A DNA stretch of 29,975 nt from a virus: positions 1-29,975 of IMG/VR virus record IMGVR_UViG_3300021364_000119, one strand, 5' to 3'. The notes under the pieces are model-generated. The model made no database searches and was not told the DNA's origin. It was given only the letters and a program-made list of their open reading frames with translations. Shown here piece after piece: positions 6,119 through 23,506 of the stretch; positions within the stretch are counted from its first letter, which is position 1; each line of letters begins with the position of its first letter. The translations under genes and the position numbers were made by a program.

Positions 6119-6126
6119 TATAAATA
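6119..6126 (+). promoter_or_regulatory. T4-type late promoter TATAAATA
   Basis: An exact TATAAATA octamer, the T4 late -10 read by gp55-polymerase with gp33 and the clamp, lies 45 bases before the ATG at 6171. The 6110-6170 gap contains no other signal. It probably drives the coupled run from 6171 to 11954. Confidence 0.75.
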
Positions 6127-6170: not shown

Positions 6171-7631
6171 ATGAAACGCTTCGGCAATTATATTACAGAA
6201 GGCTCAATTCTTAAACCAGACTACGTAGTAGGTCATAAATTTATTTTTAAAGGTAATGGCTTTAAAGAGCTATTAGCTTTAGGTTATAAGAAAGATGATA
6301 TATTCGAAGTTGTATCTGAAAATCCTAATGCATTAGAGGTTGGACCACAGGGTGGTGATTTTGTAAAACACCTTAAAGGTCCTGATGGTCGTATCATTAA
6401 AATCACAGGTGGCTCCGCGTCGGCCAAATCGGGTAATTTCACACACCTACCCGCGGCCGGCTCACCTCCGAAAGCAGCAGAATGGGAAGACCTCATTGTA
6501 TATGCTTATAATAAGATTAATAATCAACCCACAGATGAAGCCACATCTGAAGTAGCATTAAAATACTGGGATTTATATTCTGAAAATGCTACAACAATTG
6601 CTAAAAATTTCAATAAAGCCTTAAAAACGAATCGTATGGTCCAAACTGGTCGCGGAGGCGCGGTTGGTAAAGTAGAATTAGGTCCATTTTGGAAAGAAAC
6701 AGGTGCGGGAGATAAAACTCCAAAAACCGATATCGCATCAGCTGACTTTAAAGAGAAGGTATCTTTGAAAAAGACAGGTGGTTCTCAATTGGCATCAGCT
6801 GAGAAAAAAGAAGGTATCGCCATTGTTAAGTCTGCACTTGCTGAAATGGGTGCTCAACCAGGTTTCGCAAAAGATCTTTTAGACGCAATGGAAGAAAAAA
6901 TGACTAAATTGATTAGTCGTGAAACTACTGGTAGTTTAGAAGACGCGGCCAAGGCTGGTAAAAAGACAGCAGAGGTACTTGATTACCAGAAAAAGGATGC
7001 TCAAAATAAGGAACTTTCAATAATGCTTGAAAGTTATATTAACCAAAATACAGCAGCAAATTCTTTATTCGCAAAACATGTTGTATTTGAAGCTTCTACT
7101 GGTAATAATAAATTCGGTTCTCCATCATCAAAGGCTGCAGCAAATTTATTAGGAAAATTTGACCCATCTGGTTCAGTTGTAATAGAACCAATTAGGAGTG
7201 TAAACGACCCTATTATTTCAAAATACGCTAAAAATGTCAAACCTTATGTTGCATTTAAAAAGGGTGGAGCAAGTCCAGCCTATTCTGCATTCCGATTAGG
7301 TTTATCAAAAACAAATGAAGAATTTGAAACATTTTCTTCCATAGTTCTAAATGAATTAAATAGCCATAAAGAATTCCAATCATTATTAACAGAGGACTTT
7401 TTACAAGAAGGACCTTTTGATATGCTTCGAAAAGCAGGAGTTGCAATTAGAAGTATGGGTAAAAAAGCACTTGGCTTTTTGAAGAGAGTAGTTGATAATA
7501 TTATGGCTAATGTGAAAAAAGTATTTAAAAGACTTGTATCGGCTGGTAAAAGCATGTTTAAACGATTAATGGCATTCTTTGGATTGGATATATCTTCTAC
7601 GAGAGGTATTCCTGGTGGGGTATCTCTATAA
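6171..7631 (+). CDS. Large probable head-internal protein with capsid-targeting N-terminus
   Basis: The 486-residue product is preceded by a late promoter. It starts MKRFGNYITE-GS, matching the T4 capsid targeting pattern (IPIII: MKTYQEFIAE-A). A prohead protease cut after I-T-E would remove ten residues. A second candidate site, F-L-Q-E-G at 410-414, would release a 73-residue C-terminal tail that is basic and amphipathic (VKKVFKRL, FKRLMAFFG). The middle, about 70-400, is soluble and rich in A, K and G, with no catalytic motif I recognise. The stop overlaps the ATG of the kinase gene. A packaged structural or ejected protein is inferred. Confidence 0.75.
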   Translation: MKRFGNYITEGSILKPDYVVGHKFIFKGNGFKELLALGYKKDDIFEVVSENPNALEVGPQGGDFVKHLKGPDGRIIKITGGSASAKSGNFTHLPAAGSPPKAAEWEDLIVYAYNKINNQPTDEATSEVALKYWDLYSENATTIAKNFNKALKTNRMVQTGRGGAVGKVELGPFWKETGAGDKTPKTDIASADFKEKVSLKKTGGSQLASAEKKEGIAIVKSALAEMGAQPGFAKDLLDAMEEKMTKLISRETTGSLEDAAKAGKKTAEVLDYQKKDAQNKELSIMLESYINQNTAANSLFAKHVVFEASTGNNKFGSPSSKAAANLLGKFDPSGSVVIEPIRSVNDPIISKYAKNVKPYVAFKKGGASPAYSAFRLGLSKTNEEFETFSSIVLNELNSHKEFQSLLTEDFLQEGPFDMLRKAGVAIRSMGKKALGFLKRVVDNIMANVKKVFKRLVSAGKSMFKRLMAFFGLDISSTRGIPGGVSL

Positions 7632-9400
7632 TGAAAAGCTTTTTAGAGTATAAAGAGACACCACCTATCGATGTCGAAGAAGGACCAAACGATCCAGCAA
7701 TCTTCAAAGCAATATTTCTTGCGGGTGGTCCAGGCTCTGGAAAAAGTTTTATTTCGGGTAAAACAGGTTTACCTATTCTTGGATTTAAAGTTGTCAATTC
7801 AGATGTTTCGTTTGAAAAGGCAATGAAAGATGCTGCTCTGGAAATGAATCCAGAAAATATCTTTAGTGTCACTGGTCAGGCAATGAGAGATAGAGCCAAG
7901 AAAATGACCGATTTAAAGAAAAAGATCTTATTAAAAGGTCGTCTTGGTTTAGCCATTGATGGTACTGGCCGCGATTATTTAAAACTCAAAAATCAAGCTG
8001 TAGAATTAAAAACATTAGGTTATGATGTGGCCATGATTTTTGTGAATACAGACTTAGATACAGCGTTGGAAAGGAATAGAAATCGTGAAAGAACATTACC
8101 TGAACCGGCTGTTGTTAAAATGTGGAAAGATGTGCAGACAAATATTGGACGCTTCCAAAGTTTATTTAAAGATAATTTCATTGTTGTTGACAATTCTTCT
8201 GGTAGTAATTGGCAGAAAGCTACTACAAAAGGATTTAAATTCGCGCAACGATTTGCAAATAAACCAGTCCGACACGTCAAAGCAATAAAATGGCTTGCAC
8301 AATTCCGAAGTGGTCAAATGGAAGGTTGCATGGACTTGGAGGATATGAAACTTGTAGAAAGTATTATTGATATCCCAAGAAGAACATATGCACCTGCTGT
8401 ATTTGATAACGAAGAATCTGATAATCCAAAAATCAAACCAAGCGTAAAAGAATTAATTAATAAACAATTAAAAGAATTTGAAACAGAATACCCAATCCTT
8501 AAAACATCTTTAATCGGTTCTATCCTCACAAAACGATATAGGAACGATGCTGATTTGGACATTAATGTTTTATTTGATGTACCACCAGAAAAAGCAGAGG
8601 CAGAAAGAGAACGACTCTCTAAAAAGTACTTATCATCAAAGAACCCAGACAATATCCAGGGTAAATTAATCCCAGGAACCGAACATCCAATTAATTATTA
8701 CTTTATTACAAGTAAAGGTATATACGATGAACAAAATGGTAAGGCAGATGCTGTATTTGATATCGAAACAGATACATTTATCAAACGCCCAGAGGATTTT
8801 GTATTCGACCCAGATTTGTATATGCACGAATTTGATAGAAAGGTACAAGAGCTTGACATTATTAAAGGTGAATTAAAACGCGATATTATTGACTATAAAG
8901 AGTTGACAGAGCTTCAGCCAGGTGATATAATAGACTTGCAAGATAAAATTGAGGATAAACTGAAAGAAGTGGAAACTGGAATACAGGATTATGTACGTGT
9001 TGGTGACTTGGTTGACAAGGAACGCCGTGCTGCATTTGATACTGATATGACACCAGAACAGATTAAAACATTCTCTATTAAAAACAGACTACCTAAAAAT
9101 GTCGTTTATAAAATGTTAGAGAAATATCACTACTTAAAATTTTATAAAATGTGTAAAAAGATACTTGATGATGGAAAGGTTGATGATGCTGAAATTACAA
9201 AATTACAAACAGAGGCAACATTATCCGCACCAAATAAAGCAATTATTGATAATATTCTGACCAGAGTTTCTGAAAAATTAGAAAAGGATTTAAAACGAGG
9301 CAATTATAAAGATTTAAATGACATCGCAAAATTGGTAAAGAACAGAGTGGAAAAAGATACCAAACATAAAGGCTTTTCCAGAATGAAGGACCAGAAATGA
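7631..9400 (+). CDS. P-loop kinase fused to nucleotidyltransferase-like domain
   Basis: The 589-residue product combines two enzyme-like domains. Residues 25-215 form a P-loop kinase of the polynucleotide kinase/zeta-toxin type: Walker A GGPGSGKS at 32-39, AIDGTGRDY, and a lid-like ERNRNRERTLPE. Around residues 295-318, SLIGS followed by NDADLDINVLF matches the GS...DxDxD pattern of polymerase-beta-like nucleotidyltransferases. The rest is helical. The start MKSFLEYKE resembles the capsid-targeting motif with E one position early. It overlaps genes on both sides. The next large gene is ligase-like, so a nucleic acid end-repair or modification role is possible, but the substrate is unknown. 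Confidence 0.8.
   Translation: MKSFLEYKETPPIDVEEGPNDPAIFKAIFLAGGPGSGKSFISGKTGLPILGFKVVNSDVSFEKAMKDAALEMNPENIFSVTGQAMRDRAKKMTDLKKKILLKGRLGLAIDGTGRDYLKLKNQAVELKTLGYDVAMIFVNTDLDTALERNRNRERTLPEPAVVKMWKDVQTNIGRFQSLFKDNFIVVDNSSGSNWQKATTKGFKFAQRFANKPVRHVKAIKWLAQFRSGQMEGCMDLEDMKLVESIIDIPRRTYAPAVFDNEESDNPKIKPSVKELINKQLKEFETEYPILKTSLIGSILTKRYRNDADLDINVLFDVPPEKAEAERERLSKKYLSSKNPDNIQGKLIPGTEHPINYYFITSKGIYDEQNGKADAVFDIETDTFIKRPEDFVFDPDLYMHEFDRKVQELDIIKGELKRDIIDYKELTELQPGDIIDLQDKIEDKLKEVETGIQDYVRVGDLVDKERRAAFDTDMTPEQIKTFSIKNRLPKNVVYKMLEKYHYLKFYKMCKKILDDGKVDDAEITKLQTEATLSAPNKAIIDNILTRVSEKLEKDLKRGNYKDLNDIAKLVKNRVEKDTKHKGFSRMKDQK
8903..8931 (+). promoter_or_regulatory. Sigma70 promoter inside the kinase gene
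   Basis: TTGACA at 8903-8908 and TATAAT at 8926-8931 with a 17-bp spacer and an extended -10 (TGATATAAT). It would direct transcription of the genes at 9397 and 9641 independently of the late promoter at 6119. Confidence 0.6.
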
Positions 9401-9648
9401 AAACATATAAGGAATTTGTAGAAGGATTTGCAATACCTGATTACCCAATGCAAAAGGACCAAGTCCGTTATATGGACGGCCAATGGGTCACCGGTGATGC
9501 CGGCAAACCACATACATTTGACCCCAATAAAACTGGTGGTGAAAATTTAGACGATATGAATAAAGCTGTAGAAACAGACAGAAAGAAGGAAAAAGTAGAC
9601 CCAAGTATTCCAGGTAATACACAATTGGATATAGACCCAAATGATTAA
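9397..9648 (+). CDS. Small internal-protein-like polypeptide
   Basis: This 83-residue hydrophilic protein begins MKTYKEFVEG, nearly the same as the T4 IPI/IPIII leader MKTYQEFIAEA. The remainder is acidic and has no predicted domain; YMDGQWVTGD and FDPNKTGGENLDDM are its most distinctive segments. The ATG overlaps the kinase stop (ATGA) and its end overlaps the ligase-like gene by 8 bases. It is a good candidate for a processed head-internal protein. Confidence 0.75.
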   Translation: MKTYKEFVEGFAIPDYPMQKDQVRYMDGQWVTGDAGKPHTFDPNKTGGENLDDMNKAVETDRKKEKVDPSIPGNTQLDIDPND

Positions 9649-10876
9649 ATTTAAAAAATATATCGCAGAGGCCGCAGGTGCAAATCTTCATATGACGCAC
9701 TTGGAAGATGCTGTCCTTGATGGTGGTGTCACTGGTACAAGAAATGTAATTAATTATTTAAGAAACATTCGCGATATGCTTTCTGGTAGCACCGCAACAC
9801 CAGTAAGTCTTACCACAAAATGGGACGGTGCCCCTGCTATTTTTGCTGGTATTGACCCATCAGATGGTAAGTTCTTTGTGGCAAAGAAAGGACTATTTAA
9901 TAAAAATCCAAAATTATATAAAACAGATAGTGAAATAGATGATGAATTAAAAGGAGACCTTGCTGACAAGTTTAAGGTTGCCTTAGCAGAGTTTCCAAAA
10001 CTCGGAATTGAAGGAGTAGTACAAGGTGATTTCTTATTTACAAAATCAGATCTCAAAACAGAAAACATTGATGGAAAACCGCATATTACTTTCCATCCTA
10101 ATACCATTGTTTACGCGGTACCTAAAAGTTCAGACCTCGGTAAAAAAATATCAGAATCCGAAATCGGTGTGGTCTGGCACACAACATACAGAGGAAAAAC
10201 TCTTGAAACAATGTCTGCAAGTTTTGGAGAGGAGATTGCATCAAAACAAAGTTCGGTTAAAAGCGTATGGTCAATAGACGCAACATTTAAAGACGAATCG
10301 GGAAATGCAACTCTTACCAAGGCAGAAAATAGAGATATTACAGCAAAGTTATCGGCTGCTGGAAAATTATTCAGAAAAACAAAAGCAGCAAAATTAAATG
10401 CATTACATCAAAATACTGATTTAAATGCTCGTGTCAACACATACATTAATAGTAAGGTACGAGAAGGCCAGCGAATTACAAATGTAAAACAATTTGTGAT
10501 TGGGCTTCAACGATACATCGAAGAATATTATCAGAAAGAAGCAGATAAAGTTAAACAGCAAAAAACAAAAGATGCTAAAATCGCACAAGGTAAGGTATTA
10601 TTACAATACTTTAACAAGCGAGAGATTAAACAAGTAGAAACTATTTTCGAACTGTATAATTTACTTGTTGATGCAAAATACATGATAATAAATAAATTAA
10701 ACCAGGTAGAAGGAATTACAACTCTACTGAAAACAAGTAGTGGATTCGAGGTCACTGGCCAGGAAGGTTTTGTTGCTATCGACCATTACAGTAAAAACGC
10801 ACTAAAGATTGTGGATAGATTAGAATTTAGTAAAGCAAACTTTAGTACTGAATATATTAAAGGGTGGCAGAAATAA
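9641..10876 (+). CDS. Ligase-like nucleotidyltransferase with capsid-targeting N-terminus
   Basis: The 411-residue product has KWDG at residues 60-63, motif I of covalent nucleotidyltransferases (DNA and RNA ligases, capping enzymes), in the context LTTKWDGAPAIFAG. Further ligase-like elements are FFVAKKGLF, EGVVQGDFLFT and a later VWHTTYRGK. The order suggests an adenylation domain over about residues 55-230 followed by a helical C-terminal part. It starts MIKFKKYIAEA, a clear capsid targeting pattern with a cut after I-A-E. Following the kinase/nucleotidyltransferase gene, it suggests an end-healing and sealing pair. Whether it seals RNA or DNA, or modifies another substrate, cannot be told. 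Confidence 0.75.
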   Translation: MIKFKKYIAEAAGANLHMTHLEDAVLDGGVTGTRNVINYLRNIRDMLSGSTATPVSLTTKWDGAPAIFAGIDPSDGKFFVAKKGLFNKNPKLYKTDSEIDDELKGDLADKFKVALAEFPKLGIEGVVQGDFLFTKSDLKTENIDGKPHITFHPNTIVYAVPKSSDLGKKISESEIGVVWHTTYRGKTLETMSASFGEEIASKQSSVKSVWSIDATFKDESGNATLTKAENRDITAKLSAAGKLFRKTKAAKLNALHQNTDLNARVNTYINSKVREGQRITNVKQFVIGLQRYIEEYYQKEADKVKQQKTKDAKIAQGKVLLQYFNKREIKQVETIFELYNLLVDAKYMIINKLNQVEGITTLLKTSSGFEVTGQEGFVAIDHYSKNALKIVDRLEFSKANFSTEYIKGWQK

Positions 10877-11121
10877 TGGCTTGGGTCACGGTACCAGGAA
10901 GTAATGGAACATGGGAATACGAAAATACAGCATCTGCTGCTGATACCTATGTTGACTCTCCAGGCGTCGTATCAAATGGCGTCAGAACATTTACAGTACC
11001 TAACTCAGGTGGTCACACAACTCAAACTTATATAAAATGTAGGAAGCCAGGTAAGACCTTGGTGAACGGTGAAATCAATAAAGATTTTTATGATTACAGA
11101 TTCAGTCAAGGAACTCCATAA
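10876..11121 (+). CDS. Small probable virion protein
   Basis: This 81-residue protein begins MAWVTVPGSNGTWEYENTA, a pattern I recall from marine phage genomes with no assigned function. It is rich in T, G, V and Y and probably beta-structured (GVRTFTVPNSGGHTTQTYIKC). The ATG at 10876 overlaps the previous stop; an in-frame ATG at 10864 is less likely because the recurring start is MAWV. It is coupled by TAATG to the next gene, and the two probably act together in the particle. Confidence 0.7.
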   Translation: MAWVTVPGSNGTWEYENTASAADTYVDSPGVVSNGVRTFTVPNSGGHTTQTYIKCRKPGKTLVNGEINKDFYDYRFSQGTP

Positions 11122-11954
11122 TGGCAATTTGGAATAAAAACAACCAAGATTATTTACCAGATAATAAAACATTATTTGAAGCATTTATGCTATCGGATAA
11201 AGATGGTAATATTATTAACTCATTTGGTATTGCTTCAAACATTCCTATCGCTGCAGGTGAATTAGACGGTTGGGCCGCAATCCATAAATTTGGCGCGGTT
11301 CCTCTCATGTCAACAAACCCAGGCGTTGGTTCAGTTTGGGATAAGAGTGATACCTATTATCCTTGGACTGCATTTGCTACACCTGGACCACTCACGATTT
11401 CAACGACAACAACTAATGGAACTTTATCTGCATTAGACGATGGAATGACTGTGACGATTATTGGTCTCGATGAAAATTTTGAAGACGCTCAAGAAACAAT
11501 TACAATTTCTGGTAATGCGGGTGCTGGTACTCAGAATTTTGCTCGTGTATATCGAGCATTCACTTCTCAAGATAATCAAACTCAGGTACGCGTATCTACA
11601 ACAACAGGTACACCAACCGAAGTTCTTAGAATTAATATTGGTAAAGGCCAAACACTAATGGCTGTATATACAGTTCCTGCTGGCAAAACAGCATACCTAA
11701 CAAAAGGCACAGCTACTTGTGCTGCTAACGCTGACGCAACAATTGATATGTTTGTTCGTTATGGCGGAGTAGGTGCATTTAGAATTGGTCATACTGCTGA
11801 GGTTGCTGGTGTTGGTGGACAATATACATATGAATTTGCTGTTCCACTTCAAATGCCAGAAAAAACTGATATTGATATTAGAGCAACAGTTCGTTCAAAT
11901 AACGCAAGAGTGACAGCAGCATTTGATTTAATCTTAATTGATAATCCTGCTTAA
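11121..11954 (+). CDS. Probable beta-rich structural protein
   Basis: The 277-residue product has low charge and is rich in T, A, G and V, with alternating patterns typical of beta-sandwich or decoration proteins (TISTTTTNGTLSALDDGMTV, YTVPAGKTAYLTKG). It has no signal peptide, membrane segment or catalytic motif. It is the last gene of the coupled run from 6171 and ends before a 119-base gap with a strong sigma70 promoter. A capsid decoration or tail-associated role is plausible from composition only. Confidence 0.7.
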   Translation: MAIWNKNNQDYLPDNKTLFEAFMLSDKDGNIINSFGIASNIPIAAGELDGWAAIHKFGAVPLMSTNPGVGSVWDKSDTYYPWTAFATPGPLTISTTTTNGTLSALDDGMTVTIIGLDENFEDAQETITISGNAGAGTQNFARVYRAFTSQDNQTQVRVSTTTGTPTEVLRINIGKGQTLMAVYTVPAGKTAYLTKGTATCAANADATIDMFVRYGGVGAFRIGHTAEVAGVGGQYTYEFAVPLQMPEKTDIDIRATVRSNNARVTAAFDLILIDNPA

Positions 11955-11995
11955 ATAAAAATTTCAACATTATATTATGATTTTTTGGTCTTTTG

Positions 11996-12024
11996 TTGAC
12001 AAATACTTCCAAATGTATTATAAT
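11996..12024 (+). promoter_or_regulatory. Consensus sigma70 promoter for the glycan cassette
   Basis: TTGACA at 11996-12001 and TATAAT at 12019-12024 with a 17-bp spacer. It lies in the 11955-12073 gap, about 50 bases before the methyltransferase ATG, and probably starts transcription of 12074-15190. Confidence 0.85.
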
Positions 12025-12073
12025 ATATAAAATTATATAGAATATTTGCTATGAGTAGCACTAGGAGAAAATT

Positions 12074-12640
12074 ATGGGAAGAATACGCGACCGCGGTCAC
12101 GACGGTGGAAACATTTGGCGATGGCAAACAATTGAAAAATATGTTCGGAAAAATGGCTGGACAAAAGGAGCTGAACTCGGAGTTTGGCTTGGTGAAACTT
12201 TTAAACACCTTGTTCGTACCTGTCATAATCTGCATCTTATTGGTGTTGACCTTTATGAAGCTCAGCCTGGATACGACGGACCTGAACAATGGACCAGAGG
12301 TGAGAATGGCCATGCCTGGGACCACGAGACTTACTATAAAGACCTAGTAAATTTTTGCTCTCAATATCCAGATAGAGCAGAAATCATTAAAGATTATACA
12401 ACTGAAGCAGCAAAACAAGTAGAAGATGAAAGTTTAGACTTTGTCTTTATTGATGCTGACCACAGTTATAATGGTGTAATGCGAGATGTTGAAGCATGGG
12501 CTCCAAAAGTTCGCAAAGGTGGTATGATTATTGGACATGATATTCATTTTCCAACCGTGAAACAAGCAGTGGAAGAGTTATACGGAGAAGGTAATTATAC
12601 TGTAGAAGATGATTTTTTATGGTTAGTTGAAAAGCAATAA
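12074..12640 (+). CDS. SAM-dependent methyltransferase
   Basis: The 188-residue product is a class I methyltransferase of the Methyltransf_24-like group. The SAM-binding loop is AELGVWLGE near residue 35, the acidic end of beta 2 is LIGVDLYEA, and FVFIDADHSY is the motif after beta 4, with GGMIIGHDI following. This group often methylates small molecules or sugars. The ATG has a clear AGGAG site. It heads a cassette with two glycosyltransferases and a sulfotransferase, so methylation of a glycan is a reasonable inference. Confidence 0.85.
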   Translation: MGRIRDRGHDGGNIWRWQTIEKYVRKNGWTKGAELGVWLGETFKHLVRTCHNLHLIGVDLYEAQPGYDGPEQWTRGENGHAWDHETYYKDLVNFCSQYPDRAEIIKDYTTEAAKQVEDESLDFVFIDADHSYNGVMRDVEAWAPKVRKGGMIIGHDIHFPTVKQAVEELYGEGNYTVEDDFLWLVEKQ

Positions 12641-12650
12641 GGATAATACA

Positions 12651-13193
12651 GTGAAAAAGAAGACCCGAGTAATTAATTTTTATGGCGGTCCATCTTCCGG
12701 CAAAAGCACAGCTGCTGCCGGATTATTTTATAAAATGAAAATGTTGGGATACAGCGTAGAGCTGACCGACGAATTTGCCAAAGAGTGTGTATGGGAAGGA
12801 AATGTTCCCATGTTAAAAGACCAATTATGGGTCCTTGCACACCAACATCGTAAAATTTTAAGATTAAAAGGTCAAGTGGATTATGTCATTACTGACAGTC
12901 CAGTATTATTGTCTCCAATCTATAGAGAGCTTTACGATGGTCCTTTATATTCAGATTTAATTGACAAAATGGCTTTAGAGTGTTATAATATGTATGATAA
13001 TATTAACTTTTTGCTGACTCGTCCAAAAGGCTTTGAATCTGGTGGTCGAGCGCAAAATGAAGAAGAAAGTGTAAATATTGATAAGGCAATATTAAATCAG
13101 TTTAATATATTGGATATTAAATATACATTATTGGAGGGCGAAGACCCTGCAACACAAGCCTATTCAAAATTGGTGAATATACATGCACATTAA
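12651..13193 (+). CDS. P-loop NTPase / small kinase
   Basis: The 180-residue product starts at GTG 12651, with AAGGA at 12639-12643 as ribosome site. An in-frame TTG at 12627 lies inside the methyltransferase and is less likely. Walker A is GGPSSGKST near residues 11-19, and the strand VDYVITDSPVLL fits a Walker B-like position. Such proteins are annotated as AAA-like or nucleoside-kinase-like ATPases in many phages. The phosphate acceptor is unknown. A sigma70 promoter lies inside its coding sequence at 12961. Confidence 0.8.
   Translation: MKKKTRVINFYGGPSSGKSTAAAGLFYKMKMLGYSVELTDEFAKECVWEGNVPMLKDQLWVLAHQHRKILRLKGQVDYVITDSPVLLSPIYRELYDGPLYSDLIDKMALECYNMYDNINFLLTRPKGFESGGRAQNEEESVNIDKAILNQFNILDIKYTLLEGEDPATQAYSKLVNIHAH
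12961..12989 (+). promoter_or_regulatory. Sigma70 promoter inside the P-loop NTPase gene
   Basis: TTGACA at 12961-12966 and TATAAT at 12984-12989 with a 17-bp spacer and extended -10 (TGTTATAAT). It lies about 190 bases before the glycosyltransferase at 13183 and could give separate expression of the three downstream genes. Confidence 0.65.
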
Positions 13194-14510: not shown

Positions 14511-15190
14511 AAGCATATATTCTCAGAATAAACACTCCAACAAGTCGTGAATACGCAGAGGTATGTGCGAAATCTTGTGACGATGTTGGATTAGACTGGG
14601 AATATTTTGAAGGTTGGTCAGATATTACTGGCCGTGCAGCCTGGTGTCAAACTGGCATTAAAATGAAATATTATGAACCACCTTTAATTATTGATAATAT
14701 GTCTCCGGCACAAAAAGCAAATGCCTGTTCAGCTGGACATGGAGCGATATGGAAAAAGATAGCTGAGGGTGATGATAATGTTGGTATTGTATTAGAACAT
14801 GATGCAATTATGTATTATAAACCTTATGAAAAAATACCAGACAATTATTTAATTACGTTGGGTTATAAACTTACAGACCCATCTAGATACGACCATAAAA
14901 AGGCTGGACCTCCTAATGCTCTAATAAATATAACTGGCCACGAAGGTGCTCATGCATATATGATGACAAAAAGAACCGCGCAAAATATGGTTCATGAAAT
15001 TGAGGAAAAAGGAGTTTTAGGCGCAGTTGATAATGCATATTTTATCCGAGGACAGCGTAGAACGAATATACCATTATGCATTATGTCACCAACACCAGCG
15101 ATGGGTTGGTTAAGGGAGTCGACTATATGGTCGGCAAGCGCAGCTGTAAATTATGAATTTATACCTTCATTCGCAGAGTTTTATAAATAA
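14507..15190 (+). CDS. Glycosyltransferase, GT25-like
   Basis: The 227-residue product begins MKAYILRINTPTSREYAEVC, like the ILRI-type opening of GT25 enzymes involved in LPS glycosylation. KANACSAGHGAIWKKIAEGD then VGIVLEHDAIMY matches the family's CxxSH...W and LEDDA patterns; here H replaces the first D (EHDA). HAYMMTKRTAQ is also family-like. It closes the glycan cassette, overlapping the sulfotransferase by 4 bases, and its stop codon lies within the late promoter for the next operon. Confidence 0.8.
   Translation: MKAYILRINTPTSREYAEVCAKSCDDVGLDWEYFEGWSDITGRAAWCQTGIKMKYYEPPLIIDNMSPAQKANACSAGHGAIWKKIAEGDDNVGIVLEHDAIMYYKPYEKIPDNYLITLGYKLTDPSRYDHKKAGPPNALINITGHEGAHAYMMTKRTAQNMVHEIEEKGVLGAVDNAYFIRGQRRTNIPLCIMSPTPAMGWLRESTIWSASAAVNYEFIPSFAEFYK
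15182..15189 (+). promoter_or_regulatory. T4-type late promoter TATAAATA
   Basis: An exact TATAAATA octamer overlaps the end of the GT25-like gene and lies 37 bases before the ATG at 15226. It probably drives the long run from 15226 to 23503. Confidence 0.75.
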
Positions 15191-15225
15191 AACAAATAGA
15201 GCTCTAAATTACGGGATTATACCTT

Positions 15226-17064
15226 ATGGACCCAAAAGATAAATTAAACCCACGCCCAGAGGCAGAGATGGACGACGAGTCTCAGCGTGACGGTTTAGAA
15301 CCTAGAAAGCCTAAAGAAGATTCAAAAGACAAAGAAAAGAAAAAGAAAGGTTCATTACTTAAAAAAGATACCGAAGGTCGTGTCGATTCTTCAAAGTATG
15401 TAGAAACAGAACCAACAATTTCAGAAGCTGCAAGAAAATCTACAGCTGTAATTGGATTCGGTCGTATGAATCCTCCTACATCAGGCCATGAAAAACTGGT
15501 AAATAAAATTATTAATGAGGCCATTTCCCGTGATGGCGACCCATTGGTATATCTTTCCAAAACACAAGATTCAGATAAAAATCCATTAACATATGACCAA
15601 AAAATGAGATATGCAAAAGCATTCTTTGGCAAAAAATATTTTCCTGTTTCAAGATCTCGAACAATTATCGAAGTTGCAAAAGAACTTGATGGTGTATATG
15701 AAAATTTAGTTGTTGTAGTTGGTTCAGATAGAATAAAAGAATTTAGTGGATTAATGAACAGATATAATGGAAGGGATTATAATTTTAAAACATTAGATGT
15801 CATTTCCGCAGGTGAGCGTGACCCAGATTCAGATGGAGTCACCGGTATGTCTGCATCAAAAATGAGAGCTGCAGCAGAAGATGGTGATTTAAAATCATTC
15901 ACAAAGGGTGTTCCATCAAAAGGTAGACGTTTCGCAAATGCAATGTATAATGATGTTCGCAAAGGACTTGGCATGGTGGAAGAATCATTTGATGATATGG
16001 TAGCCAATTTCTTAGGCGAAAGAGTTGTAAATGGTAAACTTGACCCATTATCTGCAATGGGTAAATCAAAACTTACCGGCCGAGAGGTTGCTCAATATTA
16101 TAGAGATAATCCTAAGGCGAAGTCAGCCTCAAAGAAAAAAGAAGTTAAATTAGGTATTGAACTTGCTCTTGATTTAAGTGGTAATTATAATTACGCTATT
16201 AAAGAAATTGATAAAATTAAACGCAATTTATCCAAACATCCAGAAGTTCAAAAAGCATTACAATTTGCAAATGAATCCGTAAATCAAGAACTCTATACTG
16301 CATCCTCATTCCGTAAAAGATTATTAGATGAAAAGATGACAGTTGCTGATAAAAGAGCAAAAAGTAATTATTATAAAGATGACTCAAAGGACGGTAAATT
16401 ATCTAAATCCACATCTGCAAAACGCCACGCACAATTTGCAAAACAAACAAAAATGGACGACGATGACCCAGCTGCATATAAACCAGCACCTGGTGACGCG
16501 ACAGCAAAAACAAAACCATCAACACATACAAAAAGATTTAAGGCAATGTTTGGTGAGTCAAACGGTGCATTTTTAAAACGACCTCACCAATTATTAAGAT
16601 CTGATAATACAGTAAACTTTGATTATCGCTTTAAAATGTATTCCGCTGCAAAGGCAATGGACGAAAGAGTAAAACAAAGAGAAGAGATTAAAGCACAAAT
16701 CGAAGGTGAAGGCGATCCTTGTTGGGATGGCTATAAACAAGTTGGTATGAAAAAAGGCCGCAAAGGTAATATGGTACCAAATTGTGTTAAAGAAGAATTA
16801 GAACAGCTAGCAAATGAAGTCGAATTTATATTCATGAATGAAGGCGATACAGATAAAACACTACGAGATAAGGCAAAGAAATCAGGTATGCCTTTTAATA
16901 TCTTAAAGAAAGTGTTTGATAGAGGTGTCGCTGCATGGAGAACTGGCCACAGACCAGGTACTACTCCTACACAGTGGGGATTTGCCCGTGTTAATAGTTT
17001 CGCAACGAAATCAAAAGGAACATGGGGTAAAGCCGACAAAGATCTAGCAGATAAGGTTAAATAA
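15226..17064 (+). CDS. Nucleotidylyltransferase (HxGH-type) with long C-terminal extension
   Basis: The 612-residue product contains an adenylyl/cytidylyltransferase-like domain at about 73-250: FGRMNPPTSGHEKL with the T/H-x-G-H motif at 85-88, VVVVGSDRIKEF, and VTGMSASKMRAAAEDGD as the second nucleotide motif. The first 67 residues are charged and disordered, ending in T-I-S-E-A (64-68), a good prohead protease site. Residues 306-352 form a helical module also found in the protein at 21098. The C-terminal RTGHRPGTTPTQWGFARVNS recurs in phage proteins as I recall. The substrate (NMN-type or other) cannot be determined. The late promoter suggests a packaged enzyme. Confidence 0.8.
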   Translation: MDPKDKLNPRPEAEMDDESQRDGLEPRKPKEDSKDKEKKKKGSLLKKDTEGRVDSSKYVETEPTISEAARKSTAVIGFGRMNPPTSGHEKLVNKIINEAISRDGDPLVYLSKTQDSDKNPLTYDQKMRYAKAFFGKKYFPVSRSRTIIEVAKELDGVYENLVVVVGSDRIKEFSGLMNRYNGRDYNFKTLDVISAGERDPDSDGVTGMSASKMRAAAEDGDLKSFTKGVPSKGRRFANAMYNDVRKGLGMVEESFDDMVANFLGERVVNGKLDPLSAMGKSKLTGREVAQYYRDNPKAKSASKKKEVKLGIELALDLSGNYNYAIKEIDKIKRNLSKHPEVQKALQFANESVNQELYTASSFRKRLLDEKMTVADKRAKSNYYKDDSKDGKLSKSTSAKRHAQFAKQTKMDDDDPAAYKPAPGDATAKTKPSTHTKRFKAMFGESNGAFLKRPHQLLRSDNTVNFDYRFKMYSAAKAMDERVKQREEIKAQIEGEGDPCWDGYKQVGMKKGRKGNMVPNCVKEELEQLANEVEFIFMNEGDTDKTLRDKAKKSGMPFNILKKVFDRGVAAWRTGHRPGTTPTQWGFARVNSFATKSKGTWGKADKDLADKVK

Positions 17065-17066
17065 AA

Positions 17067-17615
17067 ATGAGTGGTGCAGGAGACTGGGGAACAGATAAAG
17101 CGCGCAATAGACTTCAGAAAGACACACCAGGACAAAAAGTAGGAGAAGAAAAAATGGAACCATTTAAATTAGATGGTCGAACAAAGGCATTTAAAGAAAA
17201 GGTCAAGAAACTTGCGTATTCAAAGAAGAAACTTAATGCTCAAGCAATTAAATTATTAGACCCTAAAGATTTTGATAATCCTTTGAAAGGCTACCCATAT
17301 AACGAGAGAATGACAAAAGAGCATTCAGAAGAATTAATGGCATTTGTTAAAAATGCAAACGAAGCAGGTGTTGAACCTACAGAATTAATGGACGCAGTGG
17401 AAAACTGGATGGCCATTAAAGGTTATACACAAGTTAAAGAAGAATCTGAATTAGATGAAGATTGGCGCAAAGACATGGAAAGAGCTGTTGATGATGCAAA
17501 TGCAAGAATTGCAAAGGCTGAAAAAGAGCTCGAGGCTGCCAAACAGAAAAAAGCAGACGTAAGAGCAAAATATAAAGACAAATATAATCGCGCGGTCGAC
17601 AAGGCCAGAGGATAA
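17067..17615 (+). CDS. Coiled-coil protein of the packaged-protein operon
   Basis: This 182-residue charged protein begins MSGAGDWGTDKARNRLQKDT and lies 2 bases after the nucleotidylyltransferase stop. The centre has NPLKGYPYNERMTKEHSEEL and the C-terminal 50 residues are a strong coiled coil (ERAVDDANARIAKAEKELEA). There is no catalytic motif. No clear ribosome site precedes the ATG, so it is probably read by coupling. Function unknown; the company and composition fit a head-core or internal protein. Confidence 0.75.
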   Translation: MSGAGDWGTDKARNRLQKDTPGQKVGEEKMEPFKLDGRTKAFKEKVKKLAYSKKKLNAQAIKLLDPKDFDNPLKGYPYNERMTKEHSEELMAFVKNANEAGVEPTELMDAVENWMAIKGYTQVKEESELDEDWRKDMERAVDDANARIAKAEKELEAAKQKKADVRAKYKDKYNRAVDKARG

Positions 17616-17641
17616 GACCTTATCAAGGTGAACAATACATT

Positions 17642-19066
17642 ATGCGAAATTTCTCAAACTTTTTATCTGAAGCGAAAGGCGAAGACTTTCAACTCAGAGT
17701 AATCATGGTCACGACTGTGCCGGATGCAAATATGCCGGCATTTCGTACCGCCTCCCACCTGGAAAAAGTATGTAAGGAACGCAATGTTCCTTTTTTTGGC
17801 TTTGATGTTGAACGTGGTTCTATTGAATGGGCAGATGGTATAGGTTCATATGTCATTCGTAATCGTAAAGACCAAACAGGCTTTAAAGTTGGACCTGGCA
17901 CTCTTTGTATTGTCCGCGGTAATGTAAGACACAATAAAGGTTGGTTTGATAAAGTTTCACAATTTGAGAAATCAGGTTGTACAATGGTCAACGCAAGAGA
18001 AGTTGCTGAATTGTGTAATGACAAATATCGCTGTTATCTCAAATTACAAGATTTTGGTTTAACACAACCAAGAACAGTCTTAATTCCAAACGAAGAAGAT
18101 GATGGTATTCAATCAGCATTAGAAAACCTTGATAGACCATTTCCGATTATTATGAAAACATTGGAAGGTTCAGAAGGTGTGGGGGTTGTTAAAATTGATT
18201 CCGAATCTTCACTTAAAGCTTTTATCCAATTAATCTATAAACAAGATGAAGCTGCAGCCTTATTAATCCAAGAATATATTGAAATGAAAGAAGATTACCG
18301 TGTCCATGTATTGGACGGTAAGGTTATAGCAAGTATGACTCGTGGTAAGGTCAAAGGCGATTTTCGTTCAAATGTCACACAAGGTGGCGATGTAAATGAA
18401 GTCAAACTCACAAAATTAGAAGTGGAACAATGTCTATTGGCAGCAAAAGCTGTAGATGGTAGATGGGTCGCTGTTGATTTTATTCCTTCAAAAGATAGAG
18501 AAAAAGAACCTCCTTTCATATTAGAGGTCAATCACAGCCCTGGCACAAAAGGTATTGAATCCGCAATGGCTGGTTCAAAAGAAAAAGGTGATAAGGAAAA
18601 TCCACTTTTAAATTTACTAATAGACCATTTTTCACAAAAGAAATTCCATTGGTCACATCCAACACAGGTTGGATATATAGAAATGGTGACGATAGAACCA
18701 TTTGGACAATTAACGGCAAAACTTGATACAGGTAATTATAGATACCCAGTACTACATGCTGATAAATATAAAATTGAGGGAAAGAATATTACATTCACAT
18801 CGTTTGGCAAAACTATAAAAACCAAACTGATAGGCGATTACGTTTCTAAAACAATGGTCGGCGAAGATAAAAGACCATTGGTAAAACTCAATTATGAATT
18901 CGCTGGTAAAAAATACGGCGAAATTACTTTTGGTTTAGACGAGCGCGATGGTCTTACAACAGATGTTCTATTAAATAGAAAATTAATGAATAAAATGAAT
19001 GTAATGGTTAACCCAAACAGAAAATATGTCCGTACAACAGCATTCGAGGCAGAGGAAAAAGAATAA
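17642..19066 (+). CDS. RimK-like ATP-grasp ligase fused to retropepsin-like domain
   Basis: The 474-residue product starts MRNFSNFLSEA, a clear capsid targeting pattern. Residues 90-310 form an ATP-grasp domain: PFPIIMKTLEGSEGVGVV with the ATP-binding Lys at 172, LLIQEYIEMKEDYRVHVLDG, and FILEVNHSPGTKG with the metal-binding E295 and N297. RimK-type enzymes add amino acids to protein or peptide ends. Residues 340-474 resemble the RimB/Zn_protease retropepsin-like family, with LDTG at 361-364 as the catalytic Asp motif. The fusion combines an adding and a cutting function. It overlaps the next gene's ATG by one base. Confidence 0.85.
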   Translation: MRNFSNFLSEAKGEDFQLRVIMVTTVPDANMPAFRTASHLEKVCKERNVPFFGFDVERGSIEWADGIGSYVIRNRKDQTGFKVGPGTLCIVRGNVRHNKGWFDKVSQFEKSGCTMVNAREVAELCNDKYRCYLKLQDFGLTQPRTVLIPNEEDDGIQSALENLDRPFPIIMKTLEGSEGVGVVKIDSESSLKAFIQLIYKQDEAAALLIQEYIEMKEDYRVHVLDGKVIASMTRGKVKGDFRSNVTQGGDVNEVKLTKLEVEQCLLAAKAVDGRWVAVDFIPSKDREKEPPFILEVNHSPGTKGIESAMAGSKEKGDKENPLLNLLIDHFSQKKFHWSHPTQVGYIEMVTIEPFGQLTAKLDTGNYRYPVLHADKYKIEGKNITFTSFGKTIKTKLIGDYVSKTMVGEDKRPLVKLNYEFAGKKYGEITFGLDERDGLTTDVLLNRKLMNKMNVMVNPNRKYVRTTAFEAEEKE

Positions 19067-19956
19067 TGAAAGCAGTAAAAGGTAGTATTAACGAGGCATT
19101 AAGACAAGTTGCAGCTTATAATAGTAATCAACTTGCTGAAGCATCAATGTCAAAGAAACAAAGTTTAGAAGATTTTGCTAAAGCAGTTGGTGTTGATAAA
19201 AAAGAACAACAATGGATTATGGATAATGAAGATGATTTCGGCCATTACCATAATAACAGTGCTCTGAAAAAGTCTTGGTTATCTCTATCATATCCAGTTT
19301 ATGACGGCGATTATTACTTTGCTTTTATTGGTGATAACGAAAGAGAAAATGCCAAGCTCAATGCTGAAGCAAATCGTAAATTAAGACAATTAGCAAAAAG
19401 TTCAATGGGGAACGAAGAAATTTTTGATGAAATGAGTAAATTATTCGGCATGACTGCATATTCTAATGTTGGTGCTGGTGATACAATGACTCGTGACGAA
19501 CTGTGGAGAGCAATTCAACATATTCGTAAAGACTATAAAGAAGAAACGGAAGTTGAAGGATACGAAGAGCTTGAAGAAAAAGTATTAAAAGGTGCAATGG
19601 CAAAAATGGCTCGTAAAATACTAGATAAAATGAGAAAACGTGCTAAGAAAATTGCCCTACCTGAAAGTTTAAAAGAAGAAATAGAATTAACCGAAAGATT
19701 AAAACCACATATTGCTAAAAAATCAAAATATTACAATAAACAATTTGATAGAAAGCTTGAACTTAGAAAAATTAAATCTTTTATCAGTGGAATTCAAAAA
19801 CTTGATAAAGAGCTTCAAGGGTTTCAAAACAATGCTGGTTTCTACGGCCCAAGTAAAATATTTGATGGTCTTGCAGATGCAGAACATGAAGCATATAATT
19901 ACCAATGGGAAATCGAACAAGGGCGCTGGGACGGCGAGATAGAAGTAGATTCATAA
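19066..19956 (+). CDS. Probable head-internal protein
   Basis: The 296-residue product starts MKAVKGSINEAL; I-N-E-A at residues 8-11 fits the prohead protease site although aromatic positions 4 and 7 are missing. A second site, L-A-E-A, occurs in NQLAEASMSK near residue 25. A region at about 35-165 has WIMDNEDDFGHYH and YPVYDGDYYFAFIGD; the remainder is rich in K and E with basic helices. No enzyme motif is recognised. Overlapping starts on both sides (TAATG) show it is part of a coupled operon. Confidence 0.7.
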   Translation: MKAVKGSINEALRQVAAYNSNQLAEASMSKKQSLEDFAKAVGVDKKEQQWIMDNEDDFGHYHNNSALKKSWLSLSYPVYDGDYYFAFIGDNERENAKLNAEANRKLRQLAKSSMGNEEIFDEMSKLFGMTAYSNVGAGDTMTRDELWRAIQHIRKDYKEETEVEGYEELEEKVLKGAMAKMARKILDKMRKRAKKIALPESLKEEIELTERLKPHIAKKSKYYNKQFDRKLELRKIKSFISGIQKLDKELQGFQNNAGFYGPSKIFDGLADAEHEAYNYQWEIEQGRWDGEIEVDS

Positions 19957-20219
19957 TGAAAAGTTTTAAACAGTTTAACGAACAGGGTAATCACATTTAC
20001 CAAAAGTTTATTCTTGCTACAAGAGCAGGAGATGATGTCTGGAAATTAAATGGTCAGGAAGATGACATTAAAAAAGCAAAAGATAGATTGGCTGATATTT
20101 GGACACAAGGTGGTAGTGCAAAGGATAAAGCAATTATAGACGCTAGATTTGCACAGAAAAATAAATGGAAACTATACCAAGTCGTAAGTTGGGACGGCAA
20201 ACAAGGCAAGAAAGGATAA
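19956..20219 (+). CDS. Small capsid-targeting-motif protein
   Basis: This 87-residue basic protein begins MKSFKQFNEQG, matching the capsid targeting pattern with aromatic residues at 4 and 7 and Glu at 9. The ATG at 19956 overlaps the previous stop; a start at 19905 inside the previous gene is unlikely because the motif begins at 19956. The remainder (DDVWKLNGQEDDIKKAKDRL, LYQVVSWDGKQGKKG) has no known domain. It is a candidate internal protein. Confidence 0.7.
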   Translation: MKSFKQFNEQGNHIYQKFILATRAGDDVWKLNGQEDDIKKAKDRLADIWTQGGSAKDKAIIDARFAQKNKWKLYQVVSWDGKQGKKG

Positions 20220-20222
20220 CCA

Positions 20223-20867
20223 ATGGATAACAAAGAATTTATTAAAGATTTACTAACTCGAAAACTTGATGAAGTAATTGGAGGTCCTAAACCTGTTGGC
20301 GATGGTCAACTTGACTCTTACTATGCAATGCAGGATGCCAAAGAAAAGGCCAAAAAAGATGGTAAAGTCTGGGATAAAATGGGTCAGGACGAAAAGGACC
20401 GTTATGTTGCTCCAGAAATGGAAAAGGCTGGTTATGAGAAAAAACCTGGTAATACAAAATGGACAAGAAAACCAACTGAAGATGAGAAAAAATTTGCGGA
20501 TAAAGTCAGAGCTGATGATGAGCGCGTACGTAAAATGTCGTCCGATGATAAGATAGATTATTTTGCTAAAAATCCTCATAAATCTACAGCTGGCATGGAC
20601 GTTTCTGATGATGATTTGCAAAAGATTAAATTGGCAAGAATGGAAAAACAGCTTGAAGATCTTCTCAAGAAAGCGGAAGAGGCTCAGATGAAAATGTATG
20701 ATGCCGAAGAAGAAGGCGACGATGACGCGTATGAAGAAGCTGATGAAGAACACGAATACTGGTATGACAAAGTACAATCACTAGAAAATAAAATAGAAGA
20801 TTTAAAAGATGAAATTGGTAGTAAAAAAGAAGAAACAATAAAAACTTTTAAAAGTTTTGTTAAATAG
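20223..20867 (+). CDS. Acidic coiled-coil protein
   Basis: The 214-residue product is highly charged. It contains a basic-acidic middle with WDKMGQDEKDRYVAPEMEKA and NTKWTRKPTEDEKKFADK, then a long coiled coil (about 135-205) with an acidic run EEEGDDDAYEEADEEHEYWY. The N-terminus MDNKEFIKDLLTRKLDE only loosely resembles the capsid targeting motif. Composition recalls prohead core or scaffold proteins of T4-like phages. No enzyme motif is present. A large minus-strand open frame over it is only a shadow of its K/E-rich codons. Confidence 0.7.
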   Translation: MDNKEFIKDLLTRKLDEVIGGPKPVGDGQLDSYYAMQDAKEKAKKDGKVWDKMGQDEKDRYVAPEMEKAGYEKKPGNTKWTRKPTEDEKKFADKVRADDERVRKMSSDDKIDYFAKNPHKSTAGMDVSDDDLQKIKLARMEKQLEDLLKKAEEAQMKMYDAEEEGDDDAYEEADEEHEYWYDKVQSLENKIEDLKDEIGSKKEETIKTFKSFVK

Positions 20868-20869
20868 TA

Positions 20870-21076
20870 ATGCTATCATTTTCGGATTATTTGGAAGAAA
20901 AGGCTAAATCAAAGGCTCAACAAAGGCTTTTTGGTTTGGCACTATCGGTAAAAGATGGTGATACACCTGAATCCGAAGTCTCACAACAGGTGAGAGACAT
21001 GGCAAAGAATATTTCCAAAAAGGATTTGGAAGATTATGCCAAAACAAAACATAAAGGTTTACCAGATAAGGTATAA
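20870..21076 (+). CDS. DUF3008-like small protein with capsid-targeting N-terminus
   Basis: This 68-residue protein starts MLSFSDYLEEK (aromatics at 4 and 7, Glu at 9 and 10). The rest, KSKAQQRLFGLAL...KDLEDYAKTKHKGLP, matches the DUF3008 pattern seen in bacteria and phages, whose function is unknown. In usual DUF3008 proteins this segment begins near the N-terminus; here it is placed behind the targeting-like peptide. This arrangement fits a bacterial-type small protein adapted for packaging, an inference. It lies 2 bases after the previous stop. Confidence 0.75.
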   Translation: MLSFSDYLEEKAKSKAQQRLFGLALSVKDGDTPESEVSQQVRDMAKNISKKDLEDYAKTKHKGLPDKV

Positions 21077-21097
21077 AAATAGAATCGGAGACGATAA

Positions 21098-22870
21098 ATG
21101 AAAAAATTTAGAAATTTATTAACAGGATTGGTCGAATCCGATGCTGCTTACGGTGCTTCATTAAAAAAGATTGCGCACGACGAAAAAATTAAATCTTTAT
21201 CTAAAAGAGATAGAGAAACATTAATGCGTATCGCTGATATGATGAAAAATGCAAATCGTGATGACATTAAACACGAAGTTGCAAACAGCCCAGAGGAAAG
21301 AAGAAAGGAACGTCTTGCTAGAATGCAAAGACAATCTGGTAGTGAAACACATAGAGATAGACAGAAAAGATTAGGTAAACCTCAAACTGAAGAAACTGAA
21401 CTCAATGAAATGACTCAAAGATTTATCTTTGATACCTTAAAGAGTGCTACCAAGGCCGAAAAAATGGCTTCTAGATTTAATCTAGATGTTGATAGTGGTG
21501 TAGGTAAAGATTCCGATGGTAAATTATTCTATGTTGCTGTCACTGGTAAATTTACAGATATTACCAAATGGATGAAGCTTTTAGATGAAGAAGTAATTTT
21601 AGAAGGTGGCGATTGTTATCATTGTGATGGTAAAGATGATGATTGCAAACATTGTGGCGGTTCAGGTTATGTTCAGTTTAAAGATGATGACAGAGATTCT
21701 AAAATCACAAGTAAAGATATTAAAATGGCAATAGGTATTGCCAATGACCCAAGATATAAAGGTGGTAATTATTCTGCTGCATATTCAAAAATTTCAAAAC
21801 TTAAAAAAGGTTTAGTATCACACCCAAGAGTTAAAGACGCATTAAGACAAGCTAACGAATCAGTTGCAAATGTAAGAAGAATTGCGAAAGAATTACAAAA
21901 AGAATCACCAAATAGATATAGTCCTCTCCAAATGGCAAAAGCTAAAAAAGAAAGAGAGGAACGAAGAAAGAAATCTGGCGACTCTGAAAGAAATAGATAT
22001 CAAAGATTAAAGCAAAGAGCCTATGGTAATTACATGGGTGGTCTCAAAGATGACTTTGCATATATTGAAACTACATTAGAAGAGAATTATAGAATACTTG
22101 CAACCAAAGGTATGGGAACTGAAACACCATCTTCCGCAAATAATATCAAGAAAAATGGTATAGAGATGGATTATTACGATGCTTCCGGTAGCAAAAGACG
22201 AGGTAAAATCTCTAATATAGATAATGAAACATATACTGTAAGAGACATTGATGATGGTAAATATCGTAAATATAAATTCCTTGATAGAGAAAAGGCTAAA
22301 GAATATTTAAAGAAGGAAAATATCAACGAAAATGATATGTCTTTAGATGACATTAAAAAGAAATGGGCTAAAGAAATTATTGCCTTCCAAGATGATGGAA
22401 AGGATTTACCATCAAGTGCAATGTCAGATTTCTATGGTTATAGAGATGTAGATTCTATTAAAACAGATGACCCTGATGAGTTCGATGATTTTGTTATGGG
22501 TTTACAAATGAGCAAATATAGAGAAGCATTAGGTTTAAAAGAAGCTTCTGCAAAGGCTGATGCAATGAAAGCCATTAAAAGAGATAGAGATTTTCAACAG
22601 GTTAAAGATGTAGATGTAAGAGCAACTACAGCTGATATGAAACTTGCTAAAAAGAATCCTATTGTACAATTAAGAAAAATTCTTGATTACAAGGGTGGTA
22701 CAATGGAGTTCTTAAATAAGAAAAAATTAAAACTGAAGAGTGATGAAGCTGATGCTTTATTACGAGGTTTTGATTCACTCCAAAAAGTACAGGACAAAGA
22801 AAAATATCAGTTATTAATTTCTAAGGACCCTGCAAGTCTTAAAAAGATTCTTAAAATTGTAAAACGATGA
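21098..22870 (+). CDS. Large multidomain packaged-type protein with zinc-knuckle
   Basis: The 590-residue product starts MKKFRNLLTGLVE, a degenerate capsid-targeting-like leader. In order it has a charged helical region (15-100) with ERRKERLARMQRQSG, a region at about 105-165, a CxxC-x6-CxxC knuckle (C173, C176, C183, C186) reminiscent of a DnaJ-type half site, and the helical module at 206-255 shared with the protein at 15226. Later come KRRGKISNIDNETYTVRDID (a small beta module) and FYGYRDVDSIKTDDPDEFDD. Possible prohead protease sites include L-K-E-A. It overlaps the next start (ATGA). No catalytic activity is evident. Confidence 0.7.
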   Translation: MKKFRNLLTGLVESDAAYGASLKKIAHDEKIKSLSKRDRETLMRIADMMKNANRDDIKHEVANSPEERRKERLARMQRQSGSETHRDRQKRLGKPQTEETELNEMTQRFIFDTLKSATKAEKMASRFNLDVDSGVGKDSDGKLFYVAVTGKFTDITKWMKLLDEEVILEGGDCYHCDGKDDDCKHCGGSGYVQFKDDDRDSKITSKDIKMAIGIANDPRYKGGNYSAAYSKISKLKKGLVSHPRVKDALRQANESVANVRRIAKELQKESPNRYSPLQMAKAKKEREERRKKSGDSERNRYQRLKQRAYGNYMGGLKDDFAYIETTLEENYRILATKGMGTETPSSANNIKKNGIEMDYYDASGSKRRGKISNIDNETYTVRDIDDGKYRKYKFLDREKAKEYLKKENINENDMSLDDIKKKWAKEIIAFQDDGKDLPSSAMSDFYGYRDVDSIKTDDPDEFDDFVMGLQMSKYREALGLKEASAKADAMKAIKRDRDFQQVKDVDVRATTADMKLAKKNPIVQLRKILDYKGGTMEFLNKKKLKLKSDEADALLRGFDSLQKVQDKEKYQLLISKDPASLKKILKIVKR

Positions 22871-23503: not shown

Positions 23504-23506
23504 ATA
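23499..23506 (+). promoter_or_regulatory. T4-type late promoter TATAAATA
   Basis: An exact TATAAATA octamer overlaps the stop of the cupin-like gene and lies 33 bases before the ATG at 23539, which has a TTAGGAGAC ribosome site. Confidence 0.75.

Follow-up and report, generated by a model that had tools for sequence, protein, structure and literature searches.

The gp41–gp61 interval of a T4-like marine phage appears, with a probability that we put at about 0.85, to encode late-expressed head cargo in which a capsid-targeting tag of the T4 internal-protein type stands in front of several proteins, enzymes among them. The window analyzed here is a linear virus fragment of 29,975 bases (IMG/VR record IMGVR_UViG_3300021364_000119). 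Its genes include UvsX (at 3649), the gp41 helicase (4673) and a gp61-type primase (29071), and the cassette in question lies between helicase and primase, amid replication genes. The window's relatives are Kyanoviridae: Methylophilales phage Melnitz, the Pelagibacter phages Mosig and HTVC008M, Phage C48C1 and cyanophages. In work ascribed to Mullaney and Black in 1996, the internal proteins of T4 (IPII, IPIII and also IPI) are said to bear a capsid-targeting sequence. The T4 prohead protease gp21 has the specificity [I/L]-x-E. Use of the T4 targeting sequence on unrelated proteins is documented (PMC3012670, PMC9958956).

An initial annotation quoted nine N-termini from this cassette as sharing the capsid-targeting pattern, and all nine are found at the positions given for them. 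A strict motif, M..[FY]..[FY][ILVFM].E, occurs at the starts 6171, 9641, 17642 and 20870, that is in 4 of the 42 genes counted, against 0.01 expected (P about 2.5e-11); two controls, internal positions of the same proteins and shuffled N-termini, give the same expectation. A looser form, M.{1,2}[FYLW]..[FYL].{1,2}E, adds 7631, 9397 and 19956, making 7 genes against 0.42 expected (P about 2e-7). The remaining starts, 19066 and 21098, match neither form and hold only an [I/L]-x-E tripeptide each, and in these two the proposed pattern is weak. The motif itself is real and far above chance. It does not cover 6171–21136 uniformly: most of the quoted starts carry it, 10864–15190 and the gene at 17067 are untagged, 15226 has a charged arm instead, and the list is to be extended by 15226 and, by homology, by 17067 and 22867. 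The carriers do include enzymes, as had been proposed, namely a kinase/nucleotidyltransferase, a protein with a predicted RNA-ligase-like fold and an ATP-grasp enzyme with a PF05618 region that scores below the curated cut-off. The genes are listed below; homologues come from IMG/VR loci (L-numbered) and named phages, and an arrow marks the candidate cut.

6171..6200 (+), tag MKRFGNYITE↓G; strict motif; 23 of 24 homologues tagged.
6171..7631 (+), tagged protein with conserved TPKTD...SLKK.GGS and a basic amphipathic C-terminus, from sequence.
7401..7409 (+), FLQE↓GP, which gives the 6171 protein a second protease-like site; [FYLI]LxE↓GP is conserved in most homologues.
7631..7681 (+), MKSFLEYKE...DVEE↓G, a tag region ahead of the kinase domain; homologues have MIKFKRFFEE↓G, MIRFKRYLEE↓G or MITFKDFLEE↓G.
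7631..9400 (+), P-loop kinase (Zeta_toxin/AAA_33) fused to a minimal nucleotidyltransferase (NTP_transf_2), by domain search.
9397..9423 (+), tag MKTYKEFVE↓G of an 83-residue protein (9397–9648); looser motif.
9641..9670 (+), tag MIKFKKYIAE↓A; strict motif; present or absent as a block among homologues.
9641..10876 (+), DUF6267 protein, predicted RNA-ligase-like fold, motif KWDGAP; Pfam 9e-107; model predicted local distance difference test score (pLDDT) 86.9.
15226..17064 (+), NMNAT-like cytidyltransferase with charged N-terminal arm, plus DUF5824; homologues S-CREM2 gp154 and S-SCSM1 open reading frame (ORF) 91 are reported virion proteins.
15418..15426 (+), protease-like site ISE↓A at the cytidyltransferase domain edge; homologues have PTLDEA, PELVEA, PSLNEA or PELNEA in the same place.
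17067..17615 (+), untagged protein; its L014 and L015 homologues start with a tag-like sequence.
17642..17671 (+), tag MRNFSNFLSE↓A; strict motif; homologues MQKFSNFLSEA, QPFKNYLEEA (Mosig), QKFSQFITEE (Melnitz).
17642..19066 (+), RimK-type ATP-grasp enzyme (RimK 1e-27) with a C-terminal PF05618 (retropepsin-like) region (4e-5).
19956..19982 (+), tag-like MKSFKQFNE of an 87-residue protein (19956–20219); looser motif; start backed by L012.
20870..20899 (+), tag MLSFSDYLEE↓K; strict motif.
20870..21076 (+), 68-residue protein; its homologue S-SCSM1 ORF93 (52% identity, E 1e-13) is a virion protein.
21098..22870 (+), weak tag MKKFRNLLTGLVE↓S; the L014 homologue of the C-terminal part begins MKNFKNFINEA.
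22867..23253 (+), degenerate tag MKRFNESFGLYEG; the L015 homologue begins MKKFKNFFDEE.

The strict motif was recast as a DNA pattern and run on both strands of 12 complete records, where it gave 21 matches, versus 4 for the reversed pattern used as control. In the 168,903 bases of T4 it finds three sites only: ipII, ipIII and gene 61.1. The ipII and ipIII matches carry the known capsid-targeting sequence, and T4 MKTYQEFIAE is recovered by the same search. Gene 61.1 (NC_000866, 18966–19130, annotated as hypothetical) starts with MKTFKEFIKE, a strict match, and adjoins gp61, as the marine cassette does; judged by this start, its product is probably a further head protein. Other matches are four C48C1 cassette genes, the S-SM1 and Syn9 cytidyltransferases, DUF6267 of Stenotrophomonas phage DLP_6, the first Melnitz cassette gene and S-CREM2 virion proteins. 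Two seem spurious, one within S-CREM2 nrdA and the other in HTVC008M.

Recurrence of the motif in homologues had been set beforehand as a check, and it is found both in IMG/VR loci and in named phages, where the letters of the tag vary and the pattern stays fixed ahead of conserved domains. The same DUF6267 start is preceded by MIKFKKYIAEA, MKTFKNFLTEE or MNSFIPFLAES, and the body of the 6171 protein by MRKFKTFIAEA, MRRFKTFVAEA or MKSFNTFMTEA. In relatives the end of the tag, [I/L/V]-x-E followed by A or G, falls exactly at the start of the enzyme domain, and untagged DUF6267 proteins (L033, L036) begin at the same domain edge; the tag comes and goes as a unit and is found on at least four unrelated enzyme families. 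In L033 and L036 the adjacent cytidyltransferase is untagged as well, as if the two genes had lost the tag jointly or neither had ever acquired it. Tagged cytidyltransferases occur in Melnitz, Syn9, S-SM1, S-CREM2 and S-SCSM1, and the untagged 15226-type proteins of the window and several close relatives have, at the same place, a charged arm ending in PTISE↓A, PTLDE↓A, PELVE↓A, PSLNE↓A or PELNE↓A. Among cyanophage cytidyltransferases (80 loci, 36 distinct sequences), MKKFSAFL-x-EA varies at x (position 9) and once at position 3. All 80 loci are tagged, a count partly biased because MKKFSAFL was one of the search patterns; the 18 loci that other patterns can reach carry the tag without exception, but they are closely related.

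Across these alignments the Glu, and usually the A, G or E after it, is kept while most other tag positions change, a conservation pattern that bears the marks expected of an [I/L]-x-E-type protease site. The propeptide region of the major capsid protein gp23 has FLSE↓A in Melnitz and LLTE↓A in S-CREM2, the same letters as the tags, and by their position these are the likely gp23 cleavage sites. The sites at 9397 and 19956 have F at P3 and fit [I/L]-x-E less well. Motif counts, the T4 search and the homologues together uphold the proposal of a T4-type tag with a prohead-protease-like end on unrelated proteins.

Published virion proteomes of relatives bear directly on packaging. In S-CREM2, 52 of 219 proteins were found in virions purified on cesium chloride (CsCl; PMC10665884, Table 3). 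The four proteins of this phage with the strict motif all belong to that set (4/4, Fisher P 0.003): an S-adenosylmethionine (SAM) hydrolase, which begins MKDFDSFLEEFD, the APH-like kinase gp14 (MKRFDAFLTEE), gp136 (MQTFSMFFSED) and the cytidyltransferase gp154 (MKNFSSFLTEA), three of them enzymes. The virion proteins gp13 (MKDLHSFLTEQ) and gp15 (MNFSEFNES) have similar starts. With a position-specific scoring matrix (PSSM) built from 42 tags, none from S-CREM2, scores above 7 bits were reached by 5 of the 28 virion proteins that are not structural, by 2 of the 167 proteins that went undetected and by none of the 24 structural proteins. Looser motifs also match proteins not detected there (gp52, gp135, gp175, gp184) and were for this reason rejected as virion predictors, so that prediction rests on the strict motif and the PSSM.

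The S-SCSM1 record marks virion proteins, and of the 10 genes ORF89–ORF98, a stretch that runs as far as the primase, 7 encode them (P about 1.4e-4 for an assumed total of roughly 282 genes). Among these are the tagged NMNAT-like homologue of the 15226 protein (ORF91) and the homologue of the 20870 protein (ORF93). The S-SM1 cytidyltransferase, MKKFSAFLNEA, is a virion protein as well (T4-GC190, PMC3037559). Absence from virions was one of the outcomes that the initial annotation had named as fatal to its idea; in relatives, the tagged cytidyltransferase is present in the purified virions of all three phages. S-PM2, with an untagged cytidyltransferase not seen in the virion, was considered as a natural experiment and dropped because what is annotated as that gene starts with part of a frame-shifted DUF6267, namely its C-terminal half.

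The timing of expression was approached through the late-promoter-like box TATAAATA, which has three exact matches in the window.

6119..6126 (+), box of the first gene run, 45 nt before 6171.
15182..15189 (+), box of the second run, 37 nt before 15226.
23499..23506 (+), box 33 nt before 23539.

Chance would give as many (3.5 expected), so their number is no evidence and placement alone counts. Because all three sit 33–45 nt before the starts of runs, they serve gene runs; the exact late-promoter-like boxes were correctly noticed, though not as features of many individual genes. In the 6171 family the box lies 37–53 nt upstream in 20 of 24 loci. Of the 25 copies in Melnitz, 19 fall in the 80 nt ahead of a gene start, a zone that takes in 6% of positions. 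In most cases the gene that follows is structural, with gp22, gp23 and the tail sheath among them, and one copy precedes the first gene of the cassette. From the placement of the box in the window, in the 6171-family loci and before the Melnitz head genes, the cassette is probably a late unit set among replication genes. Translational coupling, another early observation, is borne out by short overlaps of neighboring genes at 7631, 9397, 9641, 10864, 19066 and 19956.

We propose that late genes of the gp41–gp61 interval encode head cargo, several with a capsid-targeting sequence of about 10 residues; that this tag would dock the proteins in the prohead scaffold core; that the prohead protease (gp21) would remove it, cutting after [I/L/V]-x-E; and that the mature proteins would remain inside the head beside the DNA and be delivered with it to the next host. 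Packaging is strongly supported by the proteomes of relatives. Docking, cleavage, injection and function we infer, and ejection into the host is suggested by analogy with T4 IPI and Alt. Several observations weigh against this proposal. Untagged homologues exist (DUF6267 of Syn9 and S-SM1; L033, L036). The virion data come from relatives and not from the phage of the window, a 30-kb fragment without its own gp21–gp23. Among the virion proteins of the S-SCSM1 interval only ORF91 is tagged at its annotated start, and 89, 90, 92 and 93 are not; since only some are tagged, there must be further ways into the head or wrongly annotated starts, and so this interval holds more cargo than the tag marks.

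A further objection comes from the S-CREM2 authors themselves, who caution that enzymes present in abundance might be co-purified with virions in CsCl (PMC10665884). On that account the enzymes would be abundant late cytoplasmic proteins carried along with virions, and the shared N-terminus a signal for translation or stability. We regard this as improbable: the same pattern marks ipII and ipIII in T4, the Glu and usually its A, G or E neighbor persist while most of the tag changes, the cytidyltransferase turns up in three virion proteomes, and replication proteins such as the single-stranded DNA-binding protein gp200 are absent from the S-CREM2 virion table. Chance resemblance of K/F/E-rich N-termini, which could draw on the undetected S-CREM2 proteins caught by looser motifs, is more improbable still given the strict expectation of 0.01 by both controls and the conservation of the motif across diverged homologues. 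Somewhat less unlikely is that the tagged proteins enter the prohead by the tag as scaffold-core or assembly factors, building or maturing the head without being delivered as effectors. The T4 core also holds gp22, gp67 and gp68, which are digested (PMC9958956), and late expression and homologues in virions fit such a role too. The enzyme domains, however, have no evident role in the construction of heads (in the cassette, kinase, RimK ATP-grasp, RNA-ligase fold and cytidyltransferase; SAM hydrolase and APH-like kinase in S-CREM2), and the set of tagged proteins differs from phage to phage, as do the internal proteins of T-even phages. Head cargo bearing a T4-type targeting tag is the explanation we prefer.

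Cargo of this kind resembles the T4 internal proteins in its N-terminal pattern, its hydrophobic-x-E end and the unrelated bodies behind a common tag, and the window's relatives have a T4-type prohead protease. The T4 proteins, in contrast, are small and encoded near gene e, whereas the tag in the window stands on large enzymes, in several genes at once, in late runs between gp41 and gp61. T4 gpAlt is likewise an enzyme packed in the head, an ADP-ribosyltransferase trimmed by gp21 (PMC9958956), but the window's enzymes bear a tag of the internal-protein type. The Dar antirestriction proteins of P1 are also several head-packed cargo proteins, and DarB is packed through an N-terminal signal (PMC9024508); Dar N-termini lack a consensus, whereas the tags here share a clear one. 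Homologues of the 15226 and 20870 proteins were detected among the virion enzymes of S-CREM2, S-SCSM1 and S-SM1, for which the available portions of the papers propose no targeting signal.

What the cargo might do can be approached through the DUF6267 protein. All 50 structural matches listed for its model, in which the tag part has a pLDDT below 50, are RNA or DNA ligases, with a Naegleria RNA ligase first (Z 9.0), then fungal Trl1, T4 Rnl2 (7.8) and T4 Rnl1 (7.6); a Z near 8–9 is not conclusive alone. Foldseek by itself gave a weak result (E 0.15), and sequence search found no relative in the PDB. The KWDG around the motif I (KxDG) lysine is invariant in 15 sequences, which supports reading the prediction as an RNA-ligase-like (adenylation) fold. 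DUF6267 closely follows the kinase/nucleotidyltransferase at 7631, which has a PHROG polynucleotide kinase match (E 5e-5), and the three predicted functions in one coupled run suggest nucleic-acid repair; with low confidence, part of the cargo may be a repair kit. PADLOC gave a single weak match. As a role for the cargo we favor immediate counter-defense or host reprogramming.

Other features of the cassette can be dealt with briefly. The AlphaFold model of the 6171 protein is poor (pLDDT 60.6); the FLQE↓GP site of this protein may be a further point of processing. The 9397 tag is kept in L009, L010, L011, L012 and L034. In the 17067 region L014 has VIKFKELVKEAGGAGDWGTDKAR where the window has MSGAGDWGTDKAR. 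For the 19956 gene, the L012 homologue, which opens with MKSFKQFNEQ right after a stop, makes the longer reading from 19905 less likely. By eye, the 15226–17064 and 21098–22870 proteins share a module (YNYAIKEIDKIKRNLSKHPEVQKALQFANES / YSAAYSKISKLKKGLVSHPRVKDALRQANES), and 12074–15190 is an untagged insert of five enzyme-like genes (methyltransferase, P-loop and glycosyltransferase-like), kept in L009–L015, L019, L027 and L032. Outside the window, the Cas9-like virion nuclease S-CREM2 gp12 (L041, 7704–10313, minus strand) has a tag-like LRFASFMAEA at residues 17–26, away from its annotated start, with no usual start codon just ahead of it. A C-terminal version of the tag was rejected: TFKSFVK at the end of 20223 (window 20844–20864), TFKEFLEYIE in S-SCSM1 ORF93 (L188, 7027–7236) and TFRDFLN in S-CREM2 gp12 make 3 cases against 0.035 expected, but the pattern was picked post hoc and 753 other ORFs gave 0 new cases. 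In Agrobacterium phage Atu_ph07 (L046, 315–4147) a 778-residue protein with a 7631-type kinase domain begins MKWNDLNEA, and its neighbor MRWEQLNEN. These genes probably lie within a cluster that reportedly codes for numerous virion proteins (PMC6102473), and they may bear another tag of similar type.

Among the elements of this picture, the T4 capsid-targeting sequence, its application to unrelated proteins, packaged Alt and the P1 Dar proteins were already known. New within the literature searched are the tag in marine T4-like phages, its presence on several enzymes, its occurrence at a locus that T4 61.1 shares and its agreement with published virion proteomes. Because relatives of at least two proteins of the tagged group are found in purified virions, marine viruses probably inject, by analogy with T4, a ready-made set of enzymes along with their DNA. 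More speculatively, marine T4-like phages might inject a pre-made, interchangeable enzyme kit, with a repair set of kinase/nucleotidyltransferase and DUF6267 plus the NMNAT-like enzyme, that would undo RNA-cutting or NAD (nicotinamide adenine dinucleotide)-depleting host defenses before phage gene expression, and the gp41–gp61 interval, T4 61.1 included, might be an ancestral cargo locus. Cyanophage virion proteomes repeatedly contain enzymes, and the authors of those studies were unable to decide between cargo and contaminant. A shared targeting tag would explain how such enzymes enter heads, predicts further injected cargo among the proteins of abundant ocean viruses, and offers a handle on families such as DUF6267.

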